A stretch of 64,000 nucleotides of DNA. Source: Brachynemurus nebulosus (taxonomy: Eukaryota > Arthropoda > Insecta > Neuroptera > Myrmeleontidae). Under the pieces are notes generated by a model, which was given only the letters and a program-made list of their open reading frames with translations, ran no database searches and was not told the origin of the DNA. This document shows positions 17,434 to 59,395 of this stretch, piece after piece (the first letter of the stretch is position 1; the number at the start of each line of letters is the position of its first letter). The position numbers and the translations under genes are program-made. The DNA is taken from assembly GCA_035578155.1 (NCBI GenBank), contig JAPWDM010000001.1, forward strand, positions 86,731,150 through 86,795,149, written 5' to 3'.

Positions 17434-17515
<82 letters not shown>

Positions 17516-19850
17516 CCGCCACCTTTTAATTTGTGTAGGGCCCCCCTATGGAAGTTAAGAGATGAAATTTGGTAAATGGGGCTCATTTTCGAGACACCTC
17601 ATACTATCAAAGTGGGGTCAAATTTTGGGAAAATTTTTGATCCGACCCAACTTTTAAGGGGGTGGTGGGGGGCGGAAAAGCAATAGAACTTTTCCAAACC
17701 GGTTGGAAATAATGTTTCGGTCAATTATCTACAACATATCCAAAATTCAGCTTCCTAGGATGATTTGGTGGGAGTAGAGGGGGGAAAAACGATTTTCGCT
17801 GGATCTAACAGGCCCCCAGCCCCCCAGAATTAACGTAGAGGGTTGAAATTTGGTGTGTTGATAAAGTTCATACCTAGGTTGTGCTCTTTGGAGGTTTTAA
17901 TATTTTACCCCCACCCCCCTCATTTTTAAGCTACAATTTCATGCATTTTCGACGTTTTCGAAGTTTGTACCACTCGCACAGGTCACCCAAATAAACCTAG
18001 ATGGCTGAAATTTTGTATTCGGATTGAGTTAGTATCAAGGGGGTGCCTTTTGGGAGTCTCGACTTTCAAACCCTACCGCCACCATTTTTATACCCAAGAG
18101 AACATGATTTTTCTTGTTTTTTAACAGTTTCGTTCGGGTCAAAATCTCCCCAAATAAACCTAGAGGGCTGAAATTTTGTGTACGGGTTAAGCTAATAGCC
18201 AGACACTGTTTTTGGGGGGTTTCAACTTTTAACCCTTACCCCCACGATTTTTACGCCAATATTTCCTTAATTTTTTTGCTTGTTTTCTAACACGTCTAGA
18301 GACTCTCTAAGGAAACCTAGAGGGCTGAAATTTTGTACGTGTATTCAGTTAGTATCCAGCTAGTACCTTTTAGGGAGTCCACATTGCTTTTCCCCCCACT
18401 TCTTCCATTTTTACATCGGAATTGAATGCTATTGTTAAATGTGTTTTAAATGCATTACTTTTATTCTAAATACAAGTAGGCGAATAGTAATTTTAAAAAA
18501 TTAAAAAAAAAAACGCCGTGAGCAGCGGGGCCCCATCACGGTAGTCGAATTTTCCCCTTCATCTTCGGTATTGAATGTTTACAAGCGAAATGTGATTGAA
18601 AGTCTACAACCGAATTGTCATTTTGTTGGTTTCAAAACTGGTCATGAGTGTTCGGCTGATCGAGGCTTTAAAAAAAGGTTTTAAGTATTTAAGGGCTGTA
18701 TCTCAGTAAATTTCAATTTTGTGCCGAAAACAGGTAGCAGAACAAAAACCAACACAATTCGTACGAGGGCATTCCTGCCCATGTTTATCCGCTAATTGCC
18801 TTTATGTTTTAGTTTTAAATATTAAAAAAGGACCTTAAATAGTAAACTGGAAGGCCTTTATAAAGATATTTTTTCTTTCAAAAAAAAAATAAATAAATAA
18901 ATAAAAAATAAAAAAAATAAAAAATAAAAAATTATTTCTTCGGTATTGAGTGTCTACAAGCGAAATATAATTGAAAGTCCACAAGCGATTTGTAATTTTG
19001 GTGGTTTAAAAACTGATAATGAGTGTCCGGCTTTATAAAAAGATTTTAAGTTTTTAAGGGCTGAATCTCAGTAAATTTCAATTTTGTGCCAATAGAAGTT
19101 AACAGGGAAAAAGCCAACACAATTCGTACGAGGGCATTTCTATCCATGCTTATCCGCCAATTGCCTTTGTGTTTTACTTTTAAATATTAAAAAAGGAACT
19201 TAAATAGTAAACTGGAAGGCTTTTATGAAGATATTTTTTCTTTCCAAAAAAATCCAAAATTTCTATTTTATAAATAATAAAAATCCAAAATTCCTAAATA
19301 ATAATTAAATAAATAAATAAACAGTGACTTTAATAACATTTGCAAATTACTTAATATGTATGTATTTCATTTGTTAAAAAATTGTATTCACTTTTTTTAA
19401 ATTTTTTAAAATTTAAAAACATTATTTAAAACCGGTTTGGAAAAGTTTTATTGCTTTTCCGCCCCCCACCACCCCCTTAAAGGTCGGGTCCGAAAAAAAA
19501 TTTGCCCAAAATTTGACCCCACTTTGATAGTATTGTTGTGCATCGGAATAAGCCCCACTTACAAAGCATGAAATTGTAGCTTAAAAGTGAGGCGGGTGGG
19601 GCTAAAATATTAAAACCTTCAAAAACCACAACCTAGGTATGAACTCTATCAACACACCAAATTTCAACCCTCTACGTTAATTCTGGAGGGCTGGAGGCGT
19701 GTTAAATCCAGCGAAAATCGTTTTTTCTCCCCTACTGCCTCCAAATAATCCTAGGAAACTGAATTTTGGATATGTTGTAGATAATTGACCGAAACATTAT
19801 TTCCAACCGGTTTGGAAAATTTTTATTGCCTAGTTCATCGCATGGCCCTT
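17291..19850. mobile_element. Family B foldback element, copy 1
   Basis: After (TA)n at 17436-17513 the arm reads TTCCCGCCACCTTTTAATTT, then five degenerate modules of ~150-170 bp, each containing (AGAGG)GCTGAAATTTTGT and a C-rich TACCCCCAC(C) block. The centre holds CGCCGTGAGCAGCGGGG. From 19430 the first module returns inverted (CCGCCCCCCACCACCCCCTT, then ATTTGACCCCACTTTGATAG). The same modules occur at 55700-57172 and 58060-59395. No coding capacity. Confidence 0.82.
18535..19250. repeat. Direct duplication of ~300 bp within family B
   Basis: The block beginning TTCGGTATTGAATGTTTACA and ending AATAGTAAACTGGAAGGC is repeated from TTCGGTATTGAGTGTCTACA onward (about 18555-18870 and 18937-19222). 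The second copy has lost a few bases near CCGGCTTTATAAA. AT-rich simple sequence separates the copies. Confidence 0.85.

Positions 19851-22990: not shown

Positions 22991-23080
<90 letters not shown>
22991..23080. repeat. (TA)n tract
   Basis: Alternating TA of ~90 bases separating the pogo-like element from the next palindrome. Confidence 0.95.
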
Positions 23081-23083
<3 letters not shown>

Positions 23084-24832
23084 CTACTACAAACAATTAA
23101 GGGAGCAAAAAAAAATTGTTAATTTTTTAGTGATTTTTGAAGGACTGTTCGCACGTGAAAAATGGTCGTATCGAGATGTTTAAAAAAGTATTTTGAAGCT
23201 CCAAGATTCTAGTTTTCAGATCTTTCGTCTAAAAATTTTTAGGAGTGGCAGTTATCGAACAATTATAAGGAATAACACAAAAAAAGTTTTTGCAAATTTT
23301 TTGATCTTTTTTCTTTTGGTCTAAGGACTTGAAATCTTTTTTTACAGTAAAACCATGGTATTGACTTGATAGCCTGGTTATTCAGCTTCAGTTTCCTTTT
23401 TTCAATTTTTCTCTACGTTGAATTGTTCCGGAGATATCCAACTTTGAATGTAAAAATATCATTTTTGCTTTAACCATCGATATCTCAGTAACCAGTGATC
23501 GTACAGAAAATTTAAGGGCAGTTTTGAAATATGGAATAAATTTCCTACAAGGCTATGCCGCGTACTTTAGGAAAAAAAATTTTTTCATCCTTAATTTTAA
23601 TCTGAAAAATGTGAAAAAAGGGACTTTTTTCCTGGTTGCGAAAAATCGTCGGCATCCCTACGAATATTGATGGTGAGTCTAATGTTTGTACGAATTTTTA
23701 TACCTCAATGTACCCTCAATAACCTTGTAAATCGGCAGATCGATCTATCGAATGGTTTTCCTTAACCGTTTGTTCAAATTTTCAGATTTAAAAAATAAAG
23801 GAGCAAAATTGAATGAACAAAATTGAATGAAAAATTCAATATTTTTTTTTTTCAAATTTTTCCAGTTGGGCATCTTTCATCCATTAAAATTTAAAAATTA
23901 AGAAAAAAATTATTTTTTAAAATTTTTTTCAAAATTTAAAAGATCTTTTTTCAAATTTTTTTTTTAAAATTTAATTTTAATTTTTTATTTTTTTGAAATT
24001 TTGAAAAATTTTTTTTTCTTAATTTTCAAATTTAATGGATAAAAGATGCTTAACTGTGGAAAAATTTGAAAAAAAAAATTGAATTTTTCATTCAATTTTG
24101 TTCATTCAATTTTGCTCCTTTATTTTTTAATTCTGAAATTTTGAACAAACGGTTTAAAAAACGATTCGATAAATTGATCTGTCGATTTACAGGGTTATTG
24201 AGGGTACATTGAGGTATAAAAATTCGTACAAACATTAGACTCCCCATCAATATTCGCAGCGATGCCGACGATTTTTCGCAACAAGAAAAAAGTCCCTTTT
24301 TTCACATTTTTCAGATTAAAATTAAGGATGAAAAAAAAATTTTTCCTAGAGTACGCGGCATAGCCTTGTAGGAAATTTATTCCATATTCCAAAACTGCCC
24401 TTCAATTTTCTGTCTGATCACTGGTTACTGAGATATCGATGGTTAAAGCAAAAAGGATCCTTTTTCATTCAAAGTTGGATACCTCCGGAACAAATCAACG
24501 TAGAGAAAAATTTCAAAAAGGAATTTGAAGCTGAATAAACAGGCTATTATGTCAATGCCATGGTTTTACTGTAAAAAAAATTTTGAAGCCCGTAGACCAA
24601 AAAAAAAGATCAAAAAATTTGCAAAAACTTTTTTTTGTATTATTCCTTATAATTGCTCGATAACTGTCACTCCTAAAAATTTTTGGACGAAAGATCTGAA
24701 AACTAGAATCTTGGGGCTTCAAAATGCTTTTTTTAACATCTCGATACGACCATTTTCCACTTAAATACAGCCCTTCAAAAATCACTAAAAAATAAACAAT
24801 TTTTTTTGCTCCCTTAATTGTTTGTAGTAGTA
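23081..24832. mobile_element. Complete palindrome element, 1.75 kb
   Basis: Bases 23081 and 24832 begin inverted copies (ATACTACTACAAACAATTAA) that continue all the way to a centre near 23956, so the element is essentially two ~870-bp arms without a spacer. Matching words include CGTATCGAGATG / CATCTCGATACG and AATTTCCTACAAGGCTATGC / GCATAGCCTTGTAGGAAATT. Arms differ by scattered substitutions and short indels, so they are not a trivial sequencing fold-back. Frames at 24195-24392 and 24525-24785 are arm sequence. Inserted in (TA)n. Confidence 0.9.
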
Positions 24833-25152
24833 TATATTATATTATATATACCGGGTGTTTCAAACAACTAAGAACATAGAAATTTTAACATAGGGAAAAT
24901 TTGTTATGATGGGATGTTTTATTTTATTATTATTAAATATTTAGCAAAACTTTAAATAATATCGCGTCAAAATAATGTTCAAAAGTAATTAAAAGACCAA
25001 AGCAGTAAATTTGTTGAGGTAACTATAAATAAATCTTAATCTAATGTTAAAATATTTATTAACAAATAATACTGCTTAGTAGAAAATTGGACAGCTGTTG
25101 TTTTGTTTTCAAATTTATTTTTTTGCAATTACAGAAAATTTTAATAACTACA
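24833..25152. other. AT-rich; possible single transposon terminus
   Basis: ACCGGGTGTTTCAAACAACT at about 24850 has the look of a transposon terminus next to TA repeats, but no matching inverted end was found. Nothing else recognised. Confidence 0.3.
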
Positions 25153-25751
25153 CACACCGGCATAATTAGCGGAACATAAAAAAAATATAAAAAAATATAA
25201 AATCCTATTTATTAAACAAAGTTGGCTGTTTTTTTTTTCCATTTTCACTTAAAATAATATTGAAGTAATGAATCAATTGACTTTTCATAGAATTGTTCTT
25301 ATTCATTATTGATGCAAATCTTTTTAAGACGTCTGTCACTTTCGAACTCAAATGCCGTTTCTTCTCAATGTAGTCGAGTTTCAGACTGTCGTAATTAAAG
25401 AATAGCAAAGATTGCCTCAGGAGACTATAGATAACATCATTCTGAGTATAGTAAGACGAATGGAAGCTTTGACAAGAGCACGGGAGAAACCACGCGGTAT
25501 TAAAACGCTGTGTTTCATTTTCTATTTGTTAAATAATCTTTAACTTAAATGATTCTTAGACGACATAAGATTCCAAAAAGTTGGCATTTCATATGGTTAA
25601 TTGCTTTCGCTAACAAAAATAAAGGTATATCAACTTGTGAACATGTAATTTTAAGTGAATAATTAAATAAGACTAATAGTTTCTTAAAATTAAATGGTTT
25701 GTTTGATTTTTAGAGATATTTTGTATGTTCCGCTAATTATGCCGGTGTGTG
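25153..25751 (+). mobile_element. Tc1-like deletion derivative, copy 1
   Basis: 599 bp with ends CACACACCGGCATAATTAGC and complement, flanked by TA (25151-25152, 25752-25753). At 25412 the plus strand reads LPQETIDNIILSIVRRMEAL, the C-terminal signature of Tc1-like transposases (IPQETIDNLI...RR-A pattern known for the family). The catalytic core is absent. A 67-codon minus-strand frame (25205-25408) is conserved in the second copy only because both share ancestry. Confidence 0.87.
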
Positions 25752-25753
25752 TA

Positions 25754-26279
25754 TAATACCTGCTGATATACTATGGATACTTGTTTACCCTTTGAGACAC
25801 AAACAAAATAAAGTGTGGTACAAACGGGTATAAACGAAGTACAAACGATATGTATTATTTATTTTTGAATTTTCCATGAACCAGTCAAATTGGTTGAATG
25901 TATTAGTTGACATTGTTAACAATACTCAACTAAGGATCGATCTATTATTGCTATTTGCGATCAGATTATTAAAATTTCTAACGTTTCTTTTTTTTCCTAA
26001 TTCTCTTTTCTCTTTCAGATACTTAGGGTGCGTCTTTTATCTTCTTCACAAACTTCCTCTTAACAAAGAGTATTCTTAACTTAAATGTTACTATTAGCAA
26101 AAAGTATGTCTTTTATGTACTCTTAATGTTACTATTAAATTAATAGGAAGCCTATCATTTTGAGTTGGATTTTGACTATAGATATATTACACGGTTTACA
26201 ATTTGGGTATTTTAAATCGTTTCCATAATCAAACATTTTGTGTAACCATCGAGTTCATAGATATATACAACACAGAAGA
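25754..26279. other. Unassigned
   Basis: Low-complexity AT-rich DNA; the frame 25876-26079 shows no family motif. TCTTAACTTAAATGTTACTATTA-like words repeat loosely around 26075-26145. Confidence 0.35.
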
Positions 26280-30828: not shown

Positions 30829-32638
<1,810 letters not shown>

Positions 32639-34796: not shown

Positions 34797-37070
<2,274 letters not shown>

Positions 37071-37526
37071 TTTTTTTTTCTTTTTTCTATTTTCCCTTCT
37101 TAATAATGAAAAAATGAATAGTAAAACTGAAAAACATTAATTTATTGCTTATGGAGTAAAACGTAACATTGATAATATGTATTGTAATTTTGTATTATAG
37201 GTGATTTTTATAACATTCGAATTATTGTGTAAAATATTTGTAGATTTTTTTAAAATTCATTTTTGAAAATTAAACGTTGGCCTGAAATTTAAATAATTAG
37301 TTTTTATTAAAATATTTATTACAAAATTATAATTTGTACAGAGTAATCAATGAAGAAACTAAGGAAGTAAATAAGAAAAAAAATTAATTTTTAAATTTTT
37401 TTATTTTTACAATAAATAAGTAATTACCTTAAAAAACATTTTTTGTATTTCTTTTTTAATTAATTCATATTAAATAATAATTGACCAGAACTGAATTAAA
37501 CAATAAATAAATTAAATAAAAAATAA
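37071..37526. other. AT-rich, nothing recognised
   Basis: Homopolymer-rich sequence between the family A copy and the left target duplication of the 14-kb insertion. Confidence 0.5.
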
Positions 37527-39782
37527 ACTCATACCAGTGGTGGTTATTCCAGGTATGGTGGGTAGGCGCCGCCTACCCCAGCTATTTCTAAAAAACTGAA
37601 ATAAATTCAAAACAAGAAGGTAACATTGTTTACAAAATGATTTAAATACACAATTTCAATAAGATTTACTTTGATAATATTGCACATTAGTAGAATAGCT
37701 AGGAGAGTTCTATGACACAGTAAAACCCCAATTTTCCGGACTACTTTTTTGACGATGTTAAGAACCGTGTAGTTTGGGGTCCTACTGTACCTAGAGTATG
37801 AATTGATCTCTGACCCGGCACGTACCAAGTACATGTATTTAAAATTTGTTGTTGACATTTGACCCCACACGCGCTCATACTGTTGGCCTTGAAACTCCAA
37901 AGACCTGAGTCATCACCAGCAACCAAATTAATTTATGTTAACCCATTATGCGCCATCACAATTTACTTATAACAATTTGGTTTTGTGTTAACCCATTACC
38001 CGCCAGCACTGACGTAGTTTTTGAATACAAACCTAACGCATGCGCAGACAGAATTTAAGTACACGACGCATGCGCAGACTGAATTTTAGGTTACAATTTG
38101 ATAGATGGGGTACACTACCGCGTCAAAAATGTGGGATTACCCTAACCCACGGGGTGGCCCCAAACTTTTGACATCGTACTGTACTTAAATTTTTGGTACA
38201 CTACCGTGTCAAAAGTGTGGACCCCCTGACCAAAAAGGTATCCGATCACTTTTTGAAGCGTACTGTGCTTATTACGTGCCAATCTGGGCCTCACTTAATT
38301 GCGTCATCTTAAACGAAAATTGGGAGGCCGCTAAATTTTGTGGGGGCACTGTACCAAGCGCTAGATTTTAAAATCAGACTCCGGGGTCCAGATTTCTGAC
38401 CGCTACTCTACTGTAAATCGAGTGTCTACTGTACTTTTCAACAAGTTTAAGCCTGTTTTCAGCAAAGTCAGCACTTTTTTAATTTGTTTATTTATATGTT
38501 TTAATTTAAAAAAATGTTTATTTAAGATTTTGATGACTCAGCAATTTCTTTGTTTGATTTCAAATACGAAATAGTTTTCTTGGAATTTTTAATTTATGGC
38601 CTGATTGTTGAATTATAATTATAATATGATTCATACAAGCGGGGATTTTTGTTATATTTGTTTATTTATATAATAATTTTGAATCATGTAATAATTTTAA
38701 AATTGTTTATTTAAGATTTTGCTGAGTCATCAGTTTCTTTGTTAGATTTTGAATACGAAATGAATTTCTCGGAATTTTAAATTTATGGCTTAACATTTGC
38801 GTTGTAAAAATTCTGGTCATCGTAAACGAAAATTAAGAGGCCGCTAAATTTTGTGGGGGTACTGTACCAAGCGCTAGGCACAAAACTAACTTCAGTCTCC
38901 AGGGTCCATCCAGACTCCAGATTTCTGACCGCTACTGTACTGCCGGAAATTTGGGTGTCAATTGTACTGCATAATATTTTTATATATAATTAACCTTGAA
39001 AAACATTAGTTTTAGAATTTTATCAGCTTAAAATAAGTTTGTTTTAGCTGAATGTTTATTTTAGCAGACCTTGAAAGCACATTGTAAAACATCATTTAAG
39101 AATTTTAGTATAACACAGAACTATTTACCGCATAATTTATAAATCAAATGAAAATTATATTAATACCTACACACCTGTATATTATGTATAAACCCTGTAT
39201 ATTAATAATAATATGTAGTATTCTATTTCTAATTTACGATTAGACGGAATCTAATTATAAAATAATTTATAAATATTGCAAAAATTTGTTTAATCAGCAA
39301 AATCAATGTATATCATTTTAATACTGATACATATTTATATTTATATTACGGTATAATAGTATTGTATTTATTCATATTTTAAACAGAATAAAAGTTCAAT
39401 TTTCGGTTTTAAATTACTATAAACACGTTGCTTAATATAAAAATGATAACAGCATTTAGTTTTGCTAAATTTCTATAGATTAGTATCTATATTAGAGAAT
39501 TCACATGTAAAATCATGTATATAACGGGAGTATATTTAATATTTTTAATGAATGTTTTCTTATACAGTGTGTATCATGAAATATGCTTTTCAATTAGAAT
39601 AATAAATTTCATAAGATTTTTGTCAATACTTTTATAGGTTAACGAAAGTAACTTCTTGCTTTAAAAAATAGGGGAATTTAGGGTAATAATTAAATAAAAC
39701 GCACATAATTTTTTTTTTTAATTTTATTTATAGAATATGTATACAGAAATTAAATTGCTTAAATCTATATATTACATAAAAT

Positions 39783-40267
39783 CTACTTTTTTTCCATATA
39801 AAAATTTTTTAAAAGAATACAATTTTCTAAAGAACAAATTTTGTCAGAATGAAGCATACAACGTCTTGAATAATATTCATCTCGCAGATTGGAAATCTTC
39901 GGTACATCGAATATTTCCTCCAAATTCAAAATCCACGGCTGGTTTTCGGTACCATCAAACAAATTTGAAATCCATTTCTTCTTTTCACCGCCCTTGAAAT
40001 TTCTTTAATATAGGTTTCAATATGGAATGAAGTTTTTTGTACGGAATAAATCCATATGACCAAGGTATCCCATGCCAATTTCGGCAAAGCCAACGTGCAG
40101 CAACCCGTTCATATTTCTTCGGCAACTCGTTGAAATCAAACGGTGCGTCGAATATAAGATGTAATATTTCATCCGAATTTTTCGCAACGATACCAACTTC
40201 TTTAAAATAAAATTGGTTGTTAGCTCCTTGATAGCCTTGTATGTCAAGAAACGCCGTTTTTTATCGC
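39783..40267 (-). pseudogene. Left-arm copy of nuclease-like ORF
   Basis: Inverted counterpart of 43440-43924 with the same reading frames and the same frame break. The minus strand reads QGYQGANNQFYFKEVGIV, RNWHGIPWSYGFIPYKKL, then after the break KKKWISNLFDGTENQPWILN. See the right-arm entry for interpretation. Plus-strand frame 39737-39997 is a shadow. Confidence 0.6.
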
Positions 40268-40416
40268 CGCCGTAGAACTGAATTTACTCACACAATCCAC
40301 AACTTTATATAAAATAATTAAAATTGGTGAGGATAGTTAATTTGTGAGATGTATCCGAAAAAGGATACTAATAGCTATTACTAGTTGACCATTAAATTAC
40401 AAACTGTTAATAATAT

Positions 40417-40773
40417 TTAGCACATTGGTGCGTACCATGTTCTTTTCACTTTAAGACCTAGTGATTTAAGGAATGCTAAATTTTCGGGTGAAATGTGTTG
40501 TCGCTTAAAAGTTTTACGTTTAATGATCTTAGGTTTCGAAAGTCCTTTGCTAGGTTGTTTAGCGGTGGACTGCTCTGAATTGTAAATTATCATGGTTCGA
40601 AATGCAATTGTTTTATCACGAATTTGTTTCTTCAGCGAAAGTGATGTTAACTCTTTAACAACCACCGGTAAATTGACACAATTTTGTGTAAGTTTAACTA
40701 TTTTATACCCTTTAACCATGATAATGTGTGTGAGCCCTTTAACCATGATAAGGTGTATGAGCTCTTTAACCAT
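40417..40773 (-). CDS. Left-arm ORF118, unknown protein
   Basis: 118 codons, identical in translation to the right-arm ORF at 42934-43290, described there. It ends TGC TAA after RTWYAPMC. Its 5' end abuts the 21-bp minisatellite. Confidence 0.55.
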   Translation of the reverse strand: MVKELIHLIMVKGLTHIIMVKGYKIVKLTQNCVNLPVVVKELTSLSLKKQIRDKTIAFRTMIIYNSEQSTAKQPSKGLSKPKIIKRKTFKRQHISPENLAFLKSLGLKVKRTWYAPMC

Positions 40774-40783
40774 GATAAGGTGT

Positions 40784-41940
40784 ATGAGTCACTCCGGGGG
40801 CAAAATAAGTCACTCCGGGGGCAAAATAAGTCACTCCGGGAGCAAAATGAGTCACTCCGGGAGCAAAATGAGTCACTCCGGGAGCAAGATGAGTAACTCC
40901 GTGAGCAAAATGAGTCACTCCGGGGGAAAAATGAGTCATTCTGGGAGCAAAATGAGTCACTCCGGGAGCAAAGTTAGTCACTCCAGGAGCGAAATGAGTC
41001 ACCCCGGGAGCAAAATGAGTCACTCCGGGAGCAAAATGAGTCACTCCGGGAGCGAAATGAGTAACTCCGGGAGCAAAATGAGTCACTCCGGGAGCAAAGA
41101 GGTTCACTCCGGGAGCAAATTGAGTCACTTCTGGAGCAAAATGAGTCACTCGTCGGAGTCAAATGAGTCGCTCCGGGAGCAAAATGAGTCACTCCGGGAG
41201 CGAAATGAGTAACTCCGGGAGCAAAATGAGTCACTCCGGCAGCAAAATGAGTCACCACGGGAGGAAAATGAGTCACTCCGGGAGCAAAACGAGTCACTCC
41301 GGGGGCAAAATAAGTCACTCCGGGGGCAAAATGAGTCACTCCAGGAGCAAAATGAGTCACTCCGGGAGCAAAATGAGTCACTCCGGGAACAAGATGAGTA
41401 TGTCCGGGAGCAAAATGAGTCACTCCGTGGGCAAAATGAGTCACTCCGGGGGAAAAATGAGTCACTCTGGGAGCAAAATGAGTCACTCCGGGGGCAAAAT
41501 GAGTCATCCGGGGAGCAAAATGAGTCACTCCGGGAGCAAAATGAGTCACCCCGGGAGCAAAATTAGTCACTCCGGGAGCGAAATGAGTAACTCCGGGAGC
41601 AAAATGAGTCACTCCGGGAGCAAAATTAGTCACTACGGGGGCAAAATGAGTCACTTTGGGAGAAAAAGGAATCACTCGTTGGAGTCAAATGAGTCGCTCC
41701 GGAAGCAAAATGAGACACTCCGGGAGCAAAATGAGTCACTCCGGGAGCACAGTGAGTCACTCCGGGAGCAAAATGAGTCACCCCGGGAGCAAAATGAGTC
41801 ACTCCGGGAGCAAAATGAGTCACTCGTTGGAGTCAAATGAGTCGCTCCGGGAGGAAAATGAGTCACTCCGGGAGCGAAATGAGTAACTCCGGGAGCAAAA
41901 TGAGTCACTCGTTGGAGTCAAATGAGTCGCTCGGTGAAGC
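40784..41940. repeat. 21-bp AP-1-site minisatellite, ~55 units
   Basis: Units start TGAGTCACTCC and continue GGGAGCAAAA, for 21 bases each, repeated about 55 times with point variants. The AP-1/TRE consensus TGAGTCA occurs in nearly every unit. Because 21 bases is seven codons, several frames stay open and give heptapeptide repeats (HSGSKMS, ESLREQN, and on the other strand THFAPGV); these are artefacts of periodicity. A second-order repeat with GTTGGAGTCAAATGAGTCGC recurs near the array ends and middle. Confidence 0.97.
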
Positions 41941-42030
41941 AAATGAGCTAAGTATATATAAGTAGAGAAGCAATAAATCTTTGAACAGTTATTCATTTAC
42001 TAGCGAATGCTTCAGACCTCCCGCTGAATG

Positions 42031-42177
42031 ATGTATAATTGTGATTTTTGTGGTAAAGCATTTACGCGAAAGTCTAATCTTTCTAGACACTTAAATGCTC
42101 AACAACTAACTAAACTTTTAGTTAGTTGTGAAGAGGAGGTTGTTTCATTGCAGTTGTTATTAATTGGTGTTAAGTGA
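42031..42177 (+). CDS. Palindrome-spacer ORF with C2H2-like finger
   Basis: A 48-codon frame, ATG to TGA, in the only non-repeated part of the palindrome. It starts MYNCDFCGKAFTRKSNLSRH: Cys-X2-Cys, the Phe and Leu core positions, and the first His of a classical C2H2 finger are present. The second His is missing (HLNAQQ follows), so the finger is either degraded or completed by splicing. A T-rich acceptor-like TCTTTCTCGTTTTCAG lies downstream at ~42208-42223. It shares strand and order with the right-arm ORFs, so all three may have been one gene before the inverted duplication. A DNA-binding role is inference. Confidence 0.5.
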   Translation: MYNCDFCGKAFTRKSNLSRHLNAQQLTKLLVSCEEEVVSLQLLLIGVK

Positions 42178-42264
42178 TGTACTTGCTTACTTTCAGTAGA
42201 CTAACTATCTTTCTCGTTTTCAGATTGACGACGGTTTTATTGCTTCTCTACTTATATATACTTA

Positions 42265-42922
42265 GCTCATTTGCTTCACCGAGCGACTCATTTGACTCCA
42301 ACGAGTGACTCATTTTGCTCCCGGAGTTACTCATTTCGCTCCCGGAGTGACTAATTTTGCTCCCGGAGTGACTCATTTTGCTCCCGGAGTGACTCGTTTT
42401 GCTCCCGGAGTGACTCATTTTCCTCCCGTGGTGACTCATTTTGCTGCCGGAGTGACTCATTTTGCTCCCGGAGTTACTCATTTCGCTCCCGGAGTGACTC
42501 ATTTTGCTCCCGGAGCGACTCATTTGACTCCGACGAGTGACTCATTTTGCTCCAGAAGTGACTCAATTTGCTCCCGGAGTGAACCTCTTTGCTCCCGGAG
42601 TGACTCATTTTGCTCCCGGAGTTACTCATTTCGCTCCCGGAGTGACTCATTTTGCTCCCGGAGTGACTCATTTTGCTCCCGGAGTGACTCATTTTGCTCC
42701 CGGGGTGACTCATTTCGCTCCTGGAGTGACTAACTTTGCTCCCGGAGTGACTCATTTTGCTCCCAGAGTGACTCATTTTTCCCCCGGAGTGACTCATTTT
42801 GCTCACGGAGTTACTCATCTTGCTCCCGGAGTGACTCATTTTGCTCCCGGAGTGACTCATTTTGCTCCCGGAGTGACTTATTTTGCCCCCGGAGTGACTT
42901 ATTTTGCCCCCGGAGTGACTCA
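42265..42922. repeat. 21-bp AP-1-site minisatellite, ~31 units
   Basis: Inverted partner of the left-arm array, reading TGACTCATTTTGCTCCCG on the plus strand, with about 31 units. The same variant units occur in the same order near the outer edge, but ~24 units present in the left arm are absent here, a clean multiple of the period. Confidence 0.97.
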
Positions 42923-42933
42923 TACACCTTATC

Positions 42934-43290
42934 ATGGTTAAAGAGCTCATACACCTTATCATGGTTAAAGGGCTCACACACATTATCATGGTTAAAGGGT
43001 ATAAAATAGTTAAACTTACACAAAATTGTGTCAATTTGCCGGTGGTTGTCAAAGAGTTAACATCACTTTCGCTGAAGAAACAAATTCGTGATAAAACAAT
43101 TGCATTTCGAACCATGATAATTTACAATTCAGAGCAGTCCACCGCTAAACAACCTAGCAAAGGACTTTCGAAACCTAAGATCATTAAACGTAAAACTTTT
43201 AAGCGACAACACATTTCACCCGAAAATTTAGCATTCCTTAAATCACTAGGTCTTAAAGTGAAAAGAACATGGTACGCACCAATGTGCTAA
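42934..43290 (+). CDS. Right-arm ORF118, unknown protein
   Basis: 118 codons starting MVKELIHLIMVKGLTHIIMV, where the first 27 residues are three copies of a 27-base unit (ATGGTTAAAG...). The unique part is basic and Lys-rich, with SKPKIIKRKTFKRQHISPEN then LAFLKSLGLKVKR near the C-terminus. I do not recognise a named family. From memory only, a terminal (F/L)L-SLG(L/F)K(V/L) motif after a C2H2-finger N-terminus is seen in uncharacterised arthropod proteins, which would agree with the finger at 42031. The 118-residue translation is unchanged between arms; a spliced, longer product is possible. Confidence 0.55.
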   Translation: MVKELIHLIMVKGLTHIIMVKGYKIVKLTQNCVNLPVVVKELTSLSLKKQIRDKTIAFRTMIIYNSEQSTAKQPSKGLSKPKIIKRKTFKRQHISPENLAFLKSLGLKVKRTWYAPMC

Positions 43291-43439
43291 ATATTATTAA
43301 CAGTTTGTAATTTAATGGTCAACTAGTAATAGCTATTAGTATCCTTTTTCGGATACATCTCACAAATTAACTATCCTCACCAATTTTAATTATTTTATAT
43401 AAAGTTGTGGATTGTGTGAGTAAATTCAGTTCTACGGCG

Positions 43440-43924
43440 GCGATAAAAAACGGCGTTTCTTGACATACAAGGCTATCAAGGAGCTAACAACCAATTTTAT
43501 TTTAAAGAAGTTGGTATCGTTGCGAAAAATTCGGATGAAATATTACATCTTATATTCGACGCACCGTTTGATTTCAACGAGTTGCCGAAGAAATATGAAC
43601 GGGTTGCTGCACGTTGGCTTTGCCGAAATTGGCATGGGATACCTTGGTCATATGGATTTATTCCGTACAAAAAACTTCATTCCATATTGAAACCTATATT
43701 AAAGAAATTTCAAGGGCGGTGAAAAGAAGAAATGGATTTCAAATTTGTTTGATGGTACCGAAAACCAGCCGTGGATTTTGAATTTGGAGGAAATATTCGA
43801 TGTACCGAAGATTACCAATCTGCGAGATGAATATTATTCAAGACGTTGTATGCTTCATTCTGACAAAATTTGTTCTTTAGAAAATTGTATTCTTTTAAAA
43901 AATTTTTATATGGAAAAAAAGTAG
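43440..43924 (+). pseudogene. Right-arm nuclease-like ORF, frame-broken
   Basis: One frame reads QGYQGANNQFYFKEVGIV, NSDEILHLIFDAPFDFNELP, YERVAARWLCRNWHGIPWSY, GFIPYKKLHSILKPILKKF and stops at TGA ~43721. One base over, the +1 frame continues GGEKKKWISNLFDGTENQPW, ILNLEEIFDVPKITNLRDEY and MLHSDKICSLENCILLKNFY to TAG at 43924. The continuity of sense suggests one protein of ~160 residues with a frameshift near 43715. The pattern (QG(Y/F)... F-KE(V/L)-IV; N-HG(I/L)-W--G-IPY; KG-EK-W) resembles DnaQ/RNase H-fold-like hypothetical proteins in arthropods; this is recollection, not a search result. The break is identical in both arms, so it predates their last homogenisation. Start uncertain. Confidence 0.55.
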
Positions 43925-43929
43925 ATTTT

Positions 43930-45870
43930 ATGTAATATATAGATTTAAGCAATTTAATTTCTGTATACATATTCTATAAATAAAATTAAAAAAAAAAATT
44001 ATGTGCGTTTTATTTAATTATTACCCTAAATTCCCCTATTTTTTAAAGCAAGAAGTTACTTTCGTTAACCTATAAAAGTATTGACAAAAATCTTATGAAA
44101 TTTATTATTCTAATTGAAAAGCATATTTCATGATACACACTGTATAAGAAAACATTCATTAAAAATATTAAATATACTCCCGTTATATACATGATTTTAC
44201 ATGTGAATTCTCTAATATAGATACTAATCTATAGAAATTTAGCAAAACTAAATGCTGTTATCATTTTTATATTAAGCAACGTGTTTATAGTAATTTAAAA
44301 CCGAAAATTGAACTTTTATTCTGTTTAAAATATGAATAAATACAATACTATTATACCGTAATATAAATATAAATATGTATCAGTATTAAAATGATATACA
44401 TTGATTTTGCTGATTAAACAAATTTTTGCAATATTTACCAATTATTTTATAATTAGATTCCGTCTAATCGTAAATTAGAAATAGAATACTACATATTATT
44501 ATTAATATACAGGGTTTATACATAATATACAGGTGTGTAGGTATTAATATAATTTTCATTTGATTTATAAATTATGCGGTAAATAGTTCTGTGTTATACT
44601 AAAATTCTTAAATGATGTTTTACAATGTGCTTTCAAGGTCTGCTAAAATAAACATTCAGCTAAAACAAACTTATTTTAAGCTGATAAAATTCTATAACTA
44701 ATGTTTTTCAAGGTTAATTATATATAAAAATATTATGCAGTACAATTGACACCCAAATTTCCGGCAGTACAGTAGCGGTCAGAAATCTGGAGTCTGGATG
44801 GACCCTGGAGACTGAAGTTAGTTTTGCGCCTAGCGCTTGGTACAGTACCCCCACAAAATTTAGCGGCCTCTTAATTTTCGTTTACGATGACCAGAATTTT
44901 TACAACGCAAATGTTAAGCCATAAATTTAAAATTCCGAGAAATTCATTTCGTATTCAAAATCTAACAAAGAAACTGATGACTCAGCAAAATCTTAAATAA
45001 ACAATTTTAAAATTATTACATGATTCAAAATTATTATATAAATAAACAAATATAACAAAAATCCCCGCTTGTATGAATCATACTATAATTATAATTCAAC
45101 AATCAGGCCATAAATTAAAAATTCCAAGAAAACTATTTCGTATTTGAAATCAAACAAAGAAATTGCTGAGTCATCAAAATCTTAAATAAACATTTTTTTA
45201 AATTAAAACATATAAATAAACAAATTAAAAAAGTGCTGACTTTGCTGAAAACAGGCTTAAACTTGTTGAAAAGTACAGTAGACACTCGATTTACAGTAGA
45301 GTAGCGGTCAGAAATCTGGACCCCGGAGTCTGATTTTGAAATCTAGCGCTTGGTACAGTGCCCCCACAAAATTTAGCGGCCTCCCAATTTTCGTTTAAGA
45401 TGACGCAATTAAGTGAGGCCCAGATTTGCACGTAATAAGCAGAGTACGCTTCAAAAAGTGATCGGATACCTTTTTGGTCAGGGGGGTCCACACTTTTGAC
45501 ATGGTAGTGTATCAAAAATTTAAGTACAGTACGGTGTCAAAAGTTTGGGGCCACCCCGTGGGTTAGGGTAATCCCACATTTTTGACGTGATAGTGTACCT
45601 TTCGTTTAAGATGACTCAATTAAGTGAGATTAAAGGCTAAGGCTTGCATGTACACACAAAAAATAAGTACAGTGCGCTTCAAAAAGTGTACGGATACCTT
45701 TTTGGTCAGGGGGGCCCGCACTTTTGACACGGTAGTGTACCAAAAATTTAAGTACAGTACGGTGTCAGAAGTTTGGGGCCACCCCCGAGTCAGGGTATCC
45801 CCACATTTTTGACGCGGTAGTGTACCCCATCTATCAAATTGTAACCTAAAATTCAGTCTGCGCATGCGTC
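43930..45870. repeat. Outer arm with internal repeats (mirror 37.9-39.8 kb)
   Basis: Non-coding arm sequence. A unit TAGCGGTCAGAAATCTGG... TACAGT(A/G)CCCCCACAAAATTTAG ...CGGCCTC occurs at ~44770-44890 and ~45300-45400. A second unit with ACTTTTGACA(T/C)GGTAGTGTA and GTTTGGGGCCACCCC occurs twice at 45420-45600 and 45605-45835, but once in the left arm (38100-38270). Many TACAGTA words recur. The left arm has the same content at 37930-39780 on the other strand. Frames at 45291-45515 and 45620-45865 are not genes. Confidence 0.75.
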
Positions 45871-46009
45871 GTGTACTTTAAATTCAGTCTGCGCATGCGT
45901 TAGGTTTGTATTCAAAAACTACGTCAGTGCTGGCGGGTAATGGGTTAACACAAAACCAAATTGTTATAAGTAAATTGTGATGGCGCATAATGGGTTAACA
46001 TAAATTAAT

Positions 46010-46247
46010 TTGGTTGCTGGTGATGACTCAGGTCTTTGGAGTTTCAAGGCCAACAGTATGGGCGCGTGTGGGGTCAAATGTCAACAACAAATTTTAAATA
46101 CATGTACTTGGTACGTGCCGGGTCAGAGATCAATTCATACTCTAGGTACAGTAGGACCCCAAACTACACGGTTCTTAACATCGTCAAAAAAGTAGTCCGG
46201 AAAATTGGGGTTTTACTGTGTCATAGAACTGTCCTAGCTATTCTACT
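46010..46247. repeat. Terminal segment of the palindrome arm
   Basis: Pairs with 37689-37926. Contains GTAGGACCCCAAACTACACG and AATTGGGGTTTTACTGTG. Two overlapping frames (46010-46195 and 46036-46440; 37607-37926 in the left arm) are conserved only because the arms are copies; the second leaves the palindrome and enters unrelated DNA, so no gene is called. Confidence 0.6.
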
Positions 46248-46253
46248 CACATT

Positions 46254-47035
46254 ATTACATATATTGCATATTAGAATATACATAATTATAAAATGCATAA
46301 ATATTGTAATATTGTCCGTAGAACGTACATATACCCATTATATACACGATATACACTATAGCATATCTATAGCCACTTTATCCAGCTATACATACAACAT
46401 ATTATTCCACATGCATAGGTACCATACCTACCACAGGTAGGCTCTCTGACCACAGCGTATCCGTGTGTACTGAACCTGTATATATGTATATATTATGTAG
46501 CTGTATTAGTTGTTTATAAACCCTGTTGGTACTTTCACAGAGTAGGCGATTTTTTCGGTGACTACCGTACATACGATTACAGCCGAACTAATCAAAACTT
46601 AGTTTGTGTTCTAGTCATATCAGGTTTTAGGGTTTTTAGCATGCTTCTCGTATACCTCTTGGTTGCTGTTCCGTTGTGGTTTGATTGTTATTTTATTATT
46701 AACTGTCTTTTTTTTAAAATGACATACTACAATAAAGTATTAAAAAACATTTTTTTTAAGGAATATTGAGGAAAATAATTTTTTTGAGTAGGTATATTGA
46801 AGATAATTTAACTTATGCATATTTAATCCCATAAAAATATTATCGGTTTTTTACTTTTGCTGTAAAAAAAAAAGTTAGAACCGATATTTTATATTTTTTT
46901 TTTTAAATAAATTTGTGTTTTCTACAATTCTAATTTGTTACCTAAAGTAATTTAACTCGAAGAACTGTCAATTAGCAAAAATACGACAGCGAAGCAGAAA
47001 TATTTTTGACAATAAATATTTTTATATTATATAAA
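46254..47035. other. AT-rich; nothing recognised
   Basis: Sequence inside the hAT-bounded insertion but outside the palindrome. Contains several TATATACAC-type stretches and no gene. Confidence 0.45.
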
Positions 47036-50490: not shown

Positions 50491-51321
50491 CAGGGGTGGC
50501 CAACCCAAATGATCTTGCGGGCCACTTTGGAAGCGCATCATAACTCCACGGGCCGCATATAAAATTATGTGTTCCCATAATACACACACCGGCATAATTA
50601 GCGGAACATAAAAAAAAATAAAAAAAAATATAAAATCCTATTTATTAAACAAAGTTGGCTGCTTTTTTTTTTTTTTTTTTCATTTTCACTTAAAATAATA
50701 TTGAAGTAATGAATCAATTGACTTTTCATAGAATTGTTCTTATTCATTATTGATGCAAATCTTTTTAAGAGGTCTGTCACTTTCGAAGTCAAATACCGTT
50801 TCTTCTCAATGTAGTCGAGCTTCAGGCTTTCGTAATTAAAGAAGGGCAAAGATTGCCTCAGGAGACTATAGATAACATCATTCTGAGTATAGTAAGACGA
50901 ATGGAAGCTTTGACAAGAGCACGGGAGAAACCACGCGGTATTAAAACGCTGTGTTTCATTTTCTATTTGTTAAGTAATCTTTGACTTAAATGATTCTTAG
51001 ACAACATAAGATTCCAAAAAGTTGGCATTTCATATGTTTAATTGCTTTCGCTAACAAAAATAAAGGTATATCAACTTGTGAACATGTAATTTTAAGTGAA
51101 TAATTAAATAAGACTAATAGTTTCTTAAAATTAAATGGTTTGTTTGATTTTTAGAGATATTTTGTATGTTCCGCTAATTATGCCGGCGTGTGTATATTAC
51201 GTATTATTTTATTTTATTTTTTTTTTTTGATACATTGGTTTTCACTACCATGGTCTTTATAAAATAAATATATTTTGTATAAGTGTGATGAATCTCGCGG
51301 CCCGCGGGTTGGCCACTCCTG
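50491..51321. mobile_element. hAT MITE with perfect 8-bp TSD
   Basis: Ends CAGGGGTGGCCAACCCAAAT and, inverted, CAGGAGTGGCCAACCCGCGG. Identical ATTTAGAG octamers at 50483-50490 and 51322-51329. Without the nested Tc1 derivative the MITE is ~220 bp. Confidence 0.93.
50583..51192 (+). mobile_element. Tc1-like deletion derivative, copy 2
   Basis: 610 bp, ends CACACACCGGCATAATTAGC and complement (one change), TA flanks. Same internal structure as 25153-25751, including the C-terminal transposase remnant at ~50862 (LPQETIDNIILSIVRRMEAL). The two copies differ by scattered substitutions and a longer T-run here. Nested in the hAT MITE, so younger than it. Confidence 0.9.
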
Positions 51322-51750: not shown

Positions 51751-52605
51751 TTTCAATTCTTTTTAATGTTATTCTTTTTTCGATCTTTATTAAATTCTTG
51801 AAATTTATAATTTAAATATTTTTCAATTAATGTATTTTTTTGCCTTTCAGTATTAATTAATTCTTTTGCGTACGCTTTTTTTAAAGCAATTTTTTCACGT
51901 TCAATTTCTAGTCTTTCTTTCATTAATTTTATTTTTTCATTACCTATATGTTTTTTTATTAGTATTGTCACTGTTATGTCTTTTCACTTTTTTTTAATAT
52001 TTCCCTTTACTTCATTATTATTTACATTTGCCGTATTTTTACCATTTTCACTACATAAATTTTTCCTCTTTAATGTGCTTAAAGTAAATCCAAACGAATT
52101 TGTAGGCTTATCGCCTAAAATTGCATCTATTTCTTCATAAAAATGAAATTTGTTGGGTTGACGTCCCGTCTTATCTTTACACTCTTTATAACTTTTCAAC
52201 AATTTGTTCCATTTTGCCATGCAAATGGCTTTTGTAACATTATAACCATGACTGAATAAGTCGTTTTCAATATTGTCCCAAAAATGCTTTCTACGTAAAG
52301 GGTGATGTAACTCATCTATGTGAGAACCGTAACTACTGATGAGTAGTTTTGTATCATTATACTGCCAATTATATTTTTTTCTGTTTGTCGAAAATTTTCA
52401 GACGTGGAAGGCTGAGCATCAGTATCTCTCACATGTTGATCTAACGTCAAACAATTAATCGAAGAATTTTCTATTTCAAAACTCCTATTAAAAATTGCAT
52501 CTATACTTTCATTCACTTCGTCAACTTCACCAGAAACTATGGTGTCTCCACTGACTGATATTACAGTATCATTTTCATCACTATTTGATGTAGTGTATTC
52601 TTGAT
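51751..52605 (-). pseudogene. Myb/SANT-like DNA-binding protein, broken
   Basis: On the minus strand an acceptor TACAATGAATTTCAG precedes coding at 52605: acidic QEYTTSNSDENDTVISVSGD, then DQHVRDTDAQPSTSEN. After a frameshift in an A-run near 52380 comes the trihelix/Myb-SANT-like domain: YNWQYNDTKLLISSYGSHID, RRKHFWDNIENDLFSHGYN, MAKWNKLLKSYKECKDKTGR and FHFYEEIDAILGDKPT. A TGA at 51984 interrupts the frame, which then resumes with a coiled-coil-like KLMKERLEIEREKIALKKAY ... KYLNYKFQEFNK. Such proteins occur as Harbinger ORF1 partners and as host or other element proteins. The upstream exon(s) are outside or unrecognised. Two lesions suggest a pseudogene; assembly errors in homopolymers are possible for one. 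Confidence 0.8.
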
Positions 52606-55699: not shown

Positions 55700-57172
55700 A
55701 AAAAAAAAAAAAAACGCCGTGAATAGCGGGATCCCATCACGGAAGTCGAATTTTTCCCTTCTTCTTCAACATTGAATGTCTTCAAGCGAAATGTGATTGA
55801 AAGTCTACAAGCGATTTGTCATTTTGGTGGTTTCAAAACTGATTATGAGTGTCCGGCTGATCGGGGCTTTAGACAAAGGTTTTAAGTTTTTATGGGCTGA
55901 ATCTCAGTAAATTTCAATTTTATGCCGGTAGAAGTTAGCAGGAAAAAGCGAACACAATCGTTCGAAGGCATTCCTATCTATGCTTATCCGCCATTTGCCT
56001 TTATTTTTAAATATTAGCACCTTAAAGGACCTTAAATAGTGAACTGGAAGGCCCTTATGAAGATATTTTTTCTTTCCAAAAAAATCCAAAATTTCTGTTT
56101 TATAAATAAAATAAAAAAATCACATCAATAACATTTTTTAAATTACTTATTTATTATATGTATTGCATTTGTGATACCTGAATTTAATTCATTTGTATTA
56201 GTATTTAATTCATTTGTTTCTTTAAATTTATTATAACAACTTTATTATTAGGAAATAAATCACATTTAACAACATATAATAACGAAATTGAATTCCGATG
56301 TAAAAATGGGAAAAGTGGGGGGGGGGAATGTAACGCGGAATCCCTAAAGAGCACACTATCGATATTAACTGAATACAGATACAAAATTTTGGCCCTCTAG
56401 GTTGACTAGGCGTGTTAGAATAAAAGCCAAAAAATCAAGGAAATATTGACGTAAAAATCTTGGGGGTAAGGGTTAAAAGTTGAAACCTTCAAAAAGCAGT
56501 GGTCGGCTATTAACTTAACCTATGCACAAAATTTCAACCTCTAGGTTTATTTGGCGAGATTTTGACGCCAACAAAACTGATAAAAACAAGAAAAATCATG
56601 TTTTTTTAGTATAAAAAGGTTGGGGGTAAAAGTTGAGACCCCCAAAAGGCACACCTTGATACTAACTCAATCTGAATAGAAAATTTCAGCCCTCTAGGTT
56701 TATTTGGGTGACCTGTGCGAGTGTGCAAAAACTTCGAAAACGTCAAAAAAGCATGAAATTGTAGCTTCAAAACGGTGGGGGGCTGAATATAAAAACTTCC
56801 GAAAAGCACACCTTAGGTACGAACTCTATCAACGTACCAAATCTCAACCCACTACGTTAACTCTGAGGGACTGTGGCCGTGTTAGATCCAGCTAAAATAC
56901 TTTTTCCCCTCTAATCCCTTCAAATCATTCTAGGAAGCTGAGTTCTGGATATGTTGAAAACAACTGGCCGGAACATTATTTTCAACCAGTTTGGAAAAGT
57001 TTTATTGTTTTGTCGGCCCTACCACCCTCTTGAAAGTTGGGTTGGACCCAAATTTTGCTCAAAATTTGACCTCACTTTGATAGTATTGTTATGCATCGGA
57101 ATGAGCCCCACTTACCAAATTTCAGTTTATTCCGTCCACGGGGGGGACCCTACACATGTCAAAAGGTAGCGG
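55700..57172 (-). mobile_element. Family B arm (minus orientation)
   Basis: Starts with an A-run then CGCCGTGAATAGCGGGATCC. It passes through the GAATGTCTTCAAGCGAAATG and TATGAAGATATTTTTTCTTT blocks, then the C-rich/GGCTGAAATTTTGT modules inverted (57000-57140: GTTTTATTGTTTTGTCGG, ATTTGACCTCACTTTGATAG), ending TGTCAAAAGGTAGCGGGATA at a (TA)n. It is the mirror of 58060-59395. Frames in it are not genes. Confidence 0.83.
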
Positions 57173-58059: not shown

Positions 58060-59395
58060 GATCTGGGTACAGTTGAACCCCTCACAGTGCGACAAAACGA
58101 TAAAACTTCCAAACTGGTTGGAAATAATGTTTCGGTCATTATCTACAACAAATCCAAAATTCAGCTACCTATGGCGATTTGGAGGAAGTAGAGGGGAACA
58201 AAGTATTTCGGCTGGATCTAACATGCCCACAGCCTCCCAGAATTAATCTAGAGGGGTTGAAATTTGGATGTTGATAGACTTCGTATCTAGGATGTGCTTT
58301 TTGAAGGTTTTAATATTTTACCCCCACCCACTCCATTTTTAAGCCACAATTTTATGCTTTTCTGACGTTTTCCAGGCTTGTACCACTCGTACAGGTCACC
58401 CAAATAAACCTGGAGGGCTGAAATTTTTTATTTGGATTGAGTTAGTATCCAGGGGGTTGCTTTCTGCGGGGTCTCAACTTTTAACCTTTACCCCCACCAT
58501 TTTTATACAAAAAAAAAAAATGATTTTTTCTTGTTTCTTAGCAGTTTTGTTCGGGTCAAAATCTCCCCAAATGAAACTAGAGGGCTGAAATTTTGTGTAT
58601 AGTTTAAGTTAATAGCCAGTCATTTTTTTTGGAGGTTTCAACTTTTAACCCTTACCCCTACGATTTTTACGCCGATATTTCCTTGGTTTTTTGTTTTTTT
58701 CTCCAACACGCCCAGAGACTCTCTGAGTAAACATAGAGGGCTGAAATTTTGTACCTGTATTCAGTTAATATCGAGGGTGTGCTCTTTAGGAATTCCACAT
58801 TACCTTGCACCCACTTTTCCCATTTTTACATCGGAATTCAATTGCGTTGTTATATGTTGTTAAATGTGATTTATTTTCATAATAATACTGTAGGCATAAT
58901 AAATTTAAAGAAACAAATGAATTAAATACTATGATTTATCACAAATGCAATACATATAATATGTAAGTAATTTAAAAAATGTTATTGATGTAATTTTTTA
59001 TTTTATTTATAAAATAGAAATTTTGGGTTTTTTTGGAAAGAAAAACTGTCCTCAAAATATATTTCCAGTTCACTGTTTAAGGTCCTTTTTTAATATTTGA
59101 AAATAAAACAGAGAGGCTATTGGCGGGATAAGCATGGGTAGAAATCCCCCCAAACGAATTGAGCCGGTTTTTTTTCAGTGTAACTTTTATCGACGTAAAA
59201 TTGAAATTTACTGAGATTCAGCCCTTAAAAACTTGAACCCTTTTTTTAAAGCCCCGATCAGTCGAACACTTATCATTAGTTTTAAAACCACCAAAATGGC
59301 AACTCGCCTTTAGCATTTCAATCACATTTAGATATCTTGAAAATACCGAAGATGTAATAGGGCCCCACTGCTCACGGCGTTTTCTATTACATTAA
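58060..59395 (+). mobile_element. Family B arm (plus orientation)
   Basis: Modules run forward: TTGGAAATAATGTTTCGGTC, GGGTTGAAATTTGG, GAGGGCTGAAATTTT (three times), ACATCGGAATTCAATTGCG, then inverted AAGTCTTTCAGTTC-type blocks and GCCCCACTGCTCACGGCGTT at the end. With 55700-57172 it forms a ~3.7-kb inverted pair. The first module is truncated at the left. Confidence 0.83.

Follow-up and report, generated by a model that had tools for sequence, protein, structure and literature searches.

What is the 8.6-kb palindrome in the genome of the neuropteran insect Brachynemurus nebulosus, and how did it come to be there? It lies within 64,000 nucleotides of contig JAPWDM010000001.1 (assembly GCA_035578155.1, positions 86,731,150 to 86,795,149 of the forward strand). 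The whole of this stretch was analysed and is called the window; coordinates are given within it. The palindrome spans 37689–46247 (8559 bp), nearly all of which comprises two mirror-image arms, and with high probability it represents a mobile element formed almost entirely of its inverted repeats. The reading that we prefer, with confidence evenly poised, is that of a non-autonomous foldback transposon that formed or was homogenised recently, was inserted most likely by an integrase of Polinton/Maverick type acting in trans and has arms that probably derive from one end of a parent. The palindrome is read as a foldback because the arms are near-identical, the borders are exact and the order of domains is that of Tetris, an element of Drosophila virilis.

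Extent and borders of the palindrome

The left arm (37689–41977, + strand, 4289 bp) and the right arm (42236–46247, + strand, 4012 bp) were delimited by BLAST and global alignment. Between them the alignment leaves a middle domain, or spacer, of 258 bp (41978–42235, + strand) that is not palindromic as a whole. The terminus of the left arm, located by a terminus search, is AGTAGAATAGCTAGG. The arms terminate in AG..CT and are mirrored to the last base, the outer six letters being AGTAGA. The first 15 bases are found within the window only at the two ends of the element, and no further copy exists elsewhere in the 64 kb when up to three mismatches are allowed.

The hexamer CACATT is read directly outside both ends of the palindrome, at 37683–37688 and 46248–46253 (+ strand), as the two copies of a target site duplication. 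Among lengths of 2–12 only 6 gives a match, and two random 6-mers would agree by chance with a frequency of 0.0012 (calculated for the window outside 37001–47000). A sequence-only reading of this DNA had given the same limits, arms of 4.0–4.3 kb and direct repeats of 6 bp at both borders, and each of these proves exact. The borders bear on the possibility of an ordinary inverted segmental duplication that is not mobile. A single known copy is what such a duplication would provide, but an exact duplication of 6 bp right at the outer limits of both arms and the mirroring of the termini to the last base both speak against it, and we consider it very improbable.

Comparison of the two arms

The inner parts of the arms are 98.6% identical over 3297 columns in the BLAST alignment. 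The outer parts are 93.4% identical over 649 columns, a value that is depressed by gaps. By global alignment there are 17 substitutions in ~3,095 sites outside the tandem arrays (~0.55%; left-arm positions 37689–40783), rising to 50 once the arrays, whose alignment is uncertain, are counted. The outer 750 bp account for nine of the 17 and the other 2345 bp for eight (Fisher p = 0.0098). Five of the nine outer substitutions sit among the subterminal repeats, a region in which differences can arise by exchange between units.

Assembly errors and chimeric reads are known to yield long mirror sequences, when a strand is read back on itself. Such a fold is hardly credible here, because the tandem arrays differ in length (~55 copies on the left, 31 on the right) and a 227-bp block is present in one arm only. 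The 17 substitutions outside the arrays, the unique 258-bp spacer and the flanking duplication also argue against an artefact.

Terminal sequences and a possible relationship to Polinton/Maverick elements

The ends of the element provide the indication of which enzyme might have inserted it. Vertebrate Mavericks are described with 6-bp duplications and with (AGT)2//(ACT)2 as their commonest end motif, and for Polinton/Maverick elements the motif is given as (AGT)2 or (AG)3 plus its mirror (PMC8097293). The palindrome shares with these elements its long inverted repeats and the 6-bp length of its duplication, and its start AGTAG(A) is a partial match to the motif. Five of the six letters of AGTAGA agree with (AGT)2, which was published for vertebrates, from which insect Polintons may differ. 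Elsewhere in the window AGTAG has a frequency of 0.0007 per base. Duplication length and terminus together make a Polinton link our leading guess; membership is not claimed, since the scan of the spacer and right arm turned up no gene of a Polinton.

The sequence-only reading had proposed a giant foldback derived from a Polinton. The foldback part of this stands, in that the element consists almost wholly of inverted repeats and is flanked by an exact 6-bp duplication. The likeness of the ends is somewhat stronger than the shared initial AG on which that reading relied. The derivation is less secure, as the scan yielded no gene of a Polinton and IS3EU and GingerRoot also make duplications of 6 bp.

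Several points weigh against the preferred reading. The likeness to the (AGT)2 motif was spotted after the fact. A six-frame Pfam scan of the spacer and right arm (41978–46247), to which the left arm is nearly identical, returned no domain of a polymerase, integrase, ATPase or capsid; the sequence-only reading had likewise seen no polymerase, integrase or capsid gene. Apart from a zinc finger in the spacer, the scan gave only matches below the cut-off, all of them in frames of the 21-bp array. The absence of Polinton genes would also be expected of a non-autonomous derivative. The element is 8.6 kb in length, compared with 12.7–24.6 kb for intact vertebrate Mavericks, and its arms of 4.0–4.3 kb exceed the inverted repeats of 46–1447 bp reported for these (PMC8097293). 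One copy of the element is known. Lastly, the one subterminal unit in the left arm agrees again at some sites with the first of the two right-arm units, so that its origin by deletion (see below) is not a clean one.

Comparison with foldback elements and other 6-bp systems

The organization is that of a foldback element, of which FB of Drosophila melanogaster is an example: inverted repeats form most of the element and contain internal tandem repeats, and there is a middle domain. Tetris is described with the domain order external flanking, tandem-repeat, inner and middle, with inverted repeats of up to 1,735 bp, duplications of 8–10 bp and no transposase (PMC4079207). The present element likewise has long inverted repeats with flanking, variable-copy tandem-repeat and inner domains, a small middle domain and no transposase. 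The comparison is one of layout only; here the arms are 4.0–4.3 kb, the middle contains a zinc-finger frame and the duplication is 6 bp, outside the 8–10 bp of Mutator foldbacks of the Tetris type. Galileo, which is placed in the P superfamily, can be compared by its description only, as a Foldback-like element with long, internally repetitive inverted repeats. The Galileo duplication is 7 bp in length.

IS3EU and GingerRoot, as described, resemble the element in making 6-bp duplications. Their ends differ, being TA..TA or, occasionally in GingerRoot, TG..CA, whereas the palindrome ends in AG..CT and carries no transposase. Ginger1 and Ginger2 are described with TGT ends and 4-bp duplications (5 bp in TDD-4/5), and the palindrome has neither. 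The combination of a 6-bp duplication with AGTAG ends is matched by none of Tetris, IS3EU, GingerRoot and Ginger1/Ginger2. The comparisons draw further on PMC10045372, PMC2836005, PMC6431247 and PMC8969392.

The element might be a foldback of another superfamily (Mutator-like, P/Galileo-like, IS3EU/GingerRoot or undescribed), with its transposase supplied in trans, and to this we assign a substantial chance that is short of even. Foldback elements are mostly thought to belong to Mutator, with exceptions, and Tetris and Galileo have in common the presence of tandem repeats within long inverted repeats (PMC4079207), while IS3EU and GingerRoot provide a precedent for the length of the duplication. 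Against this, the duplications of Tetris, the termini of IS3EU and GingerRoot and both features of the Ginger elements, as described, fail to fit the palindrome.

Proposed mechanism

For a foldback with Polinton-like ends, which we prefer, an integrase or transposase from another element would bind both mirror arms through the terminal AGTAGA and the subterminal repeats. The supplying enzyme would most likely be an integrase of Polinton/Maverick type. The element would then have inserted as a unit, leaving the 6-bp duplication. The arms would stem from a single end of a longer parent, and that end would have been linked to a mirror copy of itself, whether through recombination or through self-primed (snap-back) copying. 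A parent end copied back on itself would explain both the near-identical long arms and the short unique loop; as an alternative to copying back, the arms may have grown by recombination. Afterwards the 21-bp arrays and one subterminal block would have altered in length independently in each arm.

If the palindrome is a foldback with Polinton-like ends, then virus-like self-replicating elements, too, would give rise to defective palindromes that are still able to integrate, foldback elements having so far been filed mostly under Mutator. This would provide a testable route by which long palindromes, with their hairpin RNAs and inversion breakpoints, may enter genomes.

Repeats and tandem arrays of the arms

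Starting at the end and passing inward, each arm opens with an outer part that carries subterminal and dispersed repeats. Next come the DNA containing the open frames, a 27-bp repeat in three copies and the 21-bp tandem array, and the arm closes in a short inner segment bearing a TATA-like box. The 21-bp arrays and subterminal repeats, together with the zinc finger of the spacer, are additional to the features named in the sequence-only reading.

The left arm has a single subterminal repeat unit (38109–38320, + strand), with GGTACACTACCGYGTCAAAA at 38109 and 38195, while the right arm has two tandem units that are 82% alike (45389–45826, − strand). With up to three mismatches the motif GGTACACTACCGYGTCAAAA has seven sites in the window, all of them within the element, where 0.01 would be expected. 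The start of the left unit resembles right unit 1 and the remainder mostly right unit 2. From this composite sequence, the left arm most likely lost one unit by recombination between direct repeats.

The three copies of the 27-bp repeat occupy 40708–40788 (+ strand) in the left arm, with the mirror copy at 42919–42999. The 21-bp array has ~55 copies of the unit ATGAGTCACTCCGGGAGCAAA in the left arm (40784–41947, + strand) and ~31 copies in the right (42266–42923, − strand). An exact TGAGTCA, which we take to be an AP-1-like site, is present in 35 of the 54 left units as cut and in 19 of the 31 right units (here on the − strand), giving 54 together. In the window outside the element TGASTCA has nine sites in 55,441 bases, compared with these 54 exact TGAGTCA units.

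The positions of TGAGTCA have a mean conservation of 0.94 in both arrays, compared with 0.90 elsewhere in the unit (p = 0.09 left, 0.22 right). They are thus kept slightly but not significantly better than the rest, and an AP-1 function of the array is unsupported. Outside the array the left arm contains three sites where 0.18 are expected, a number reached in 1 of 1000 shuffles. There are four in the right arm outside its array, of which at least three are mirror copies and so not independent; the pattern counted had been picked once the unit was inspected.

Open frames of the arms

The right arm contains an open frame of 123 codons (42919–43290, + strand), copied in the left arm at 40417–40788 (− strand) according to the open-frame list. 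It is followed by two overlapping open frames (43447–43722 and 43703–43924, + strand) that lie in different reading frames, as they do in the left-arm copy (39783–40260, − strand). An AATAAA occurs shortly afterwards (43979–43984, + strand), as a pattern match with a presumed function. The sequence-only reading had taken these regions as two conserved coding segments per arm. The frames exist, but they differ between the arms at 3 of 850 sites, compared with 14 of 2245 in non-coding DNA (p = 0.59). They are no more alike than their surroundings, and conservation was dropped as evidence for coding.

The length of the longest frame is ordinary (P = 0.17 and 0.15 for two stretches, 1000 shuffles). 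In the same test it is the summed length of the three longest + strand frames that is unusual (P = 0.002 for one stretch and 0 of 1000 shuffles for the other); neither measure is unusual in a control stretch of the arm outside the frames (44000–46247; P = 0.43 and 0.28). The first codon position is elevated in G+C in two of the three frames. The open frames may be gene remnants. If 43447–43924 is one gene then it is broken identically in both arms, and the break would therefore predate the last homogenisation of the arms.

A Pfam search with the arm frames found no homologue at E = 1, and a search of PHROGs gave a single weak match (E = 0.12). Among solved structures there was no match for the first frame of 43447–43924 and one of chance level for the second (E = 0.61). 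Protein searches with the 123-codon frame and with the first frame of 43447–43924 found no relative; two were restricted to candidates of similar length, and a third, for the first frame of 43447–43924, admitted longer ones. In viral contigs protein patterns matched 6 and 37 stretches, none of which was confirmed as a relative, and exact DNA patterns of the subterminal repeat, the array and the terminus gave no match. One exact subterminal DNA pattern likewise had no match in genome contigs. Viruses, prokaryotes and predicted proteins make up most of the collections searched, so that absence from them says little about eukaryotes. When folded without an alignment, the two longest frames reached a mean predicted local distance difference test (pLDDT) score of 54 and 37, too low for a fold search, and the 123-codon frame has neither a homologue nor a confident fold.

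The spacer

The spacer contains a 48-codon open frame (42031–42174, + strand) with one C2H2 zinc finger (Pfam zf-C2H2, E = 2.8e-7), which is the only supported domain in the element. It scores 31.1 bits against a cut-off of 25.2 when the 48-codon frame is scanned by itself, and falls to 23.7 bits, under the cut-off, when scanned inside a frame of 1422 residues.

A small hairpin with a 12-bp stem and a loop of 4 bases is formed by 42102–42129 (no strand assigned), centred 9 bases away from the midpoint of the palindrome. The spacer taken whole folds no better than its shuffles (z = −1.12; 25 of 200 as good), and a special fold of the entire domain is unsupported. No match to Rfam was found in the window at gathering scores.

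In a special form of the preferred reading, a protein-primed strand of a Polinton-like parent would have turned near the central hairpin, been copied on itself and then integrated. The near-perfect arms, the short unique loop and the position of the hairpin are consistent with this. Protein-primed genomes start with a short repeated motif, and the end of the palindrome also opens with one (AG-T, AG-A). The ordinary folding of the spacer tells against such a turn, as does the lack of a parent sequence and of assignable junctions, and no Polinton of this form is found in literature titles and abstracts among the matches listed. We regard this form as unlikely. It is quite doubtful that the palindrome is an integrated copy-back form, a defective Polinton-like genome with an array-flanked central promoter (54 TGAGTCA in the two arrays) that parasitises a full relative for both replication and insertion.

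A TATA-like box, TATATATAAG, at 41953–41962 (+ strand; a pattern match with a putative function) faces the spacer, and the right arm has the mirror copy at its inner end. From these inward-facing boxes each transcript would cross the spacer and exit through the opposite arm. The TGAGTCA-bearing arrays may drive this putative central promoter.

Other elements in the window

A Tc1/mariner-type transposase frame of 356 codons with no stop lies at 31182–32252 (− strand; Pfam DDE_3, E = 6.6e-20 and HTH_Tnp_Tc3_2, E = 9.6e-17), and a Myb/SANT-like DNA-binding frame at 51984–52397 (− strand; Pfam Myb_DNA-bind_4, E = 1.8e-16). There is a second, smaller palindrome of 1.8 kb (23063–24850), which is 89.6% identical to its own mirror and has TA repeats at its borders. 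An inverted pair of 1.2-kb repeats, 80% alike, is located at 55789–57015 and 58090–59329, with further partial copies at 17436–18500. Lastly, a 0.6-kb element resembling a miniature inverted-repeat transposable element is present in two copies (25144–25759 and 50577–51200) that are 95.8% alike and have mirrored ends with CCGGCATAATTAGCGGAACAT.

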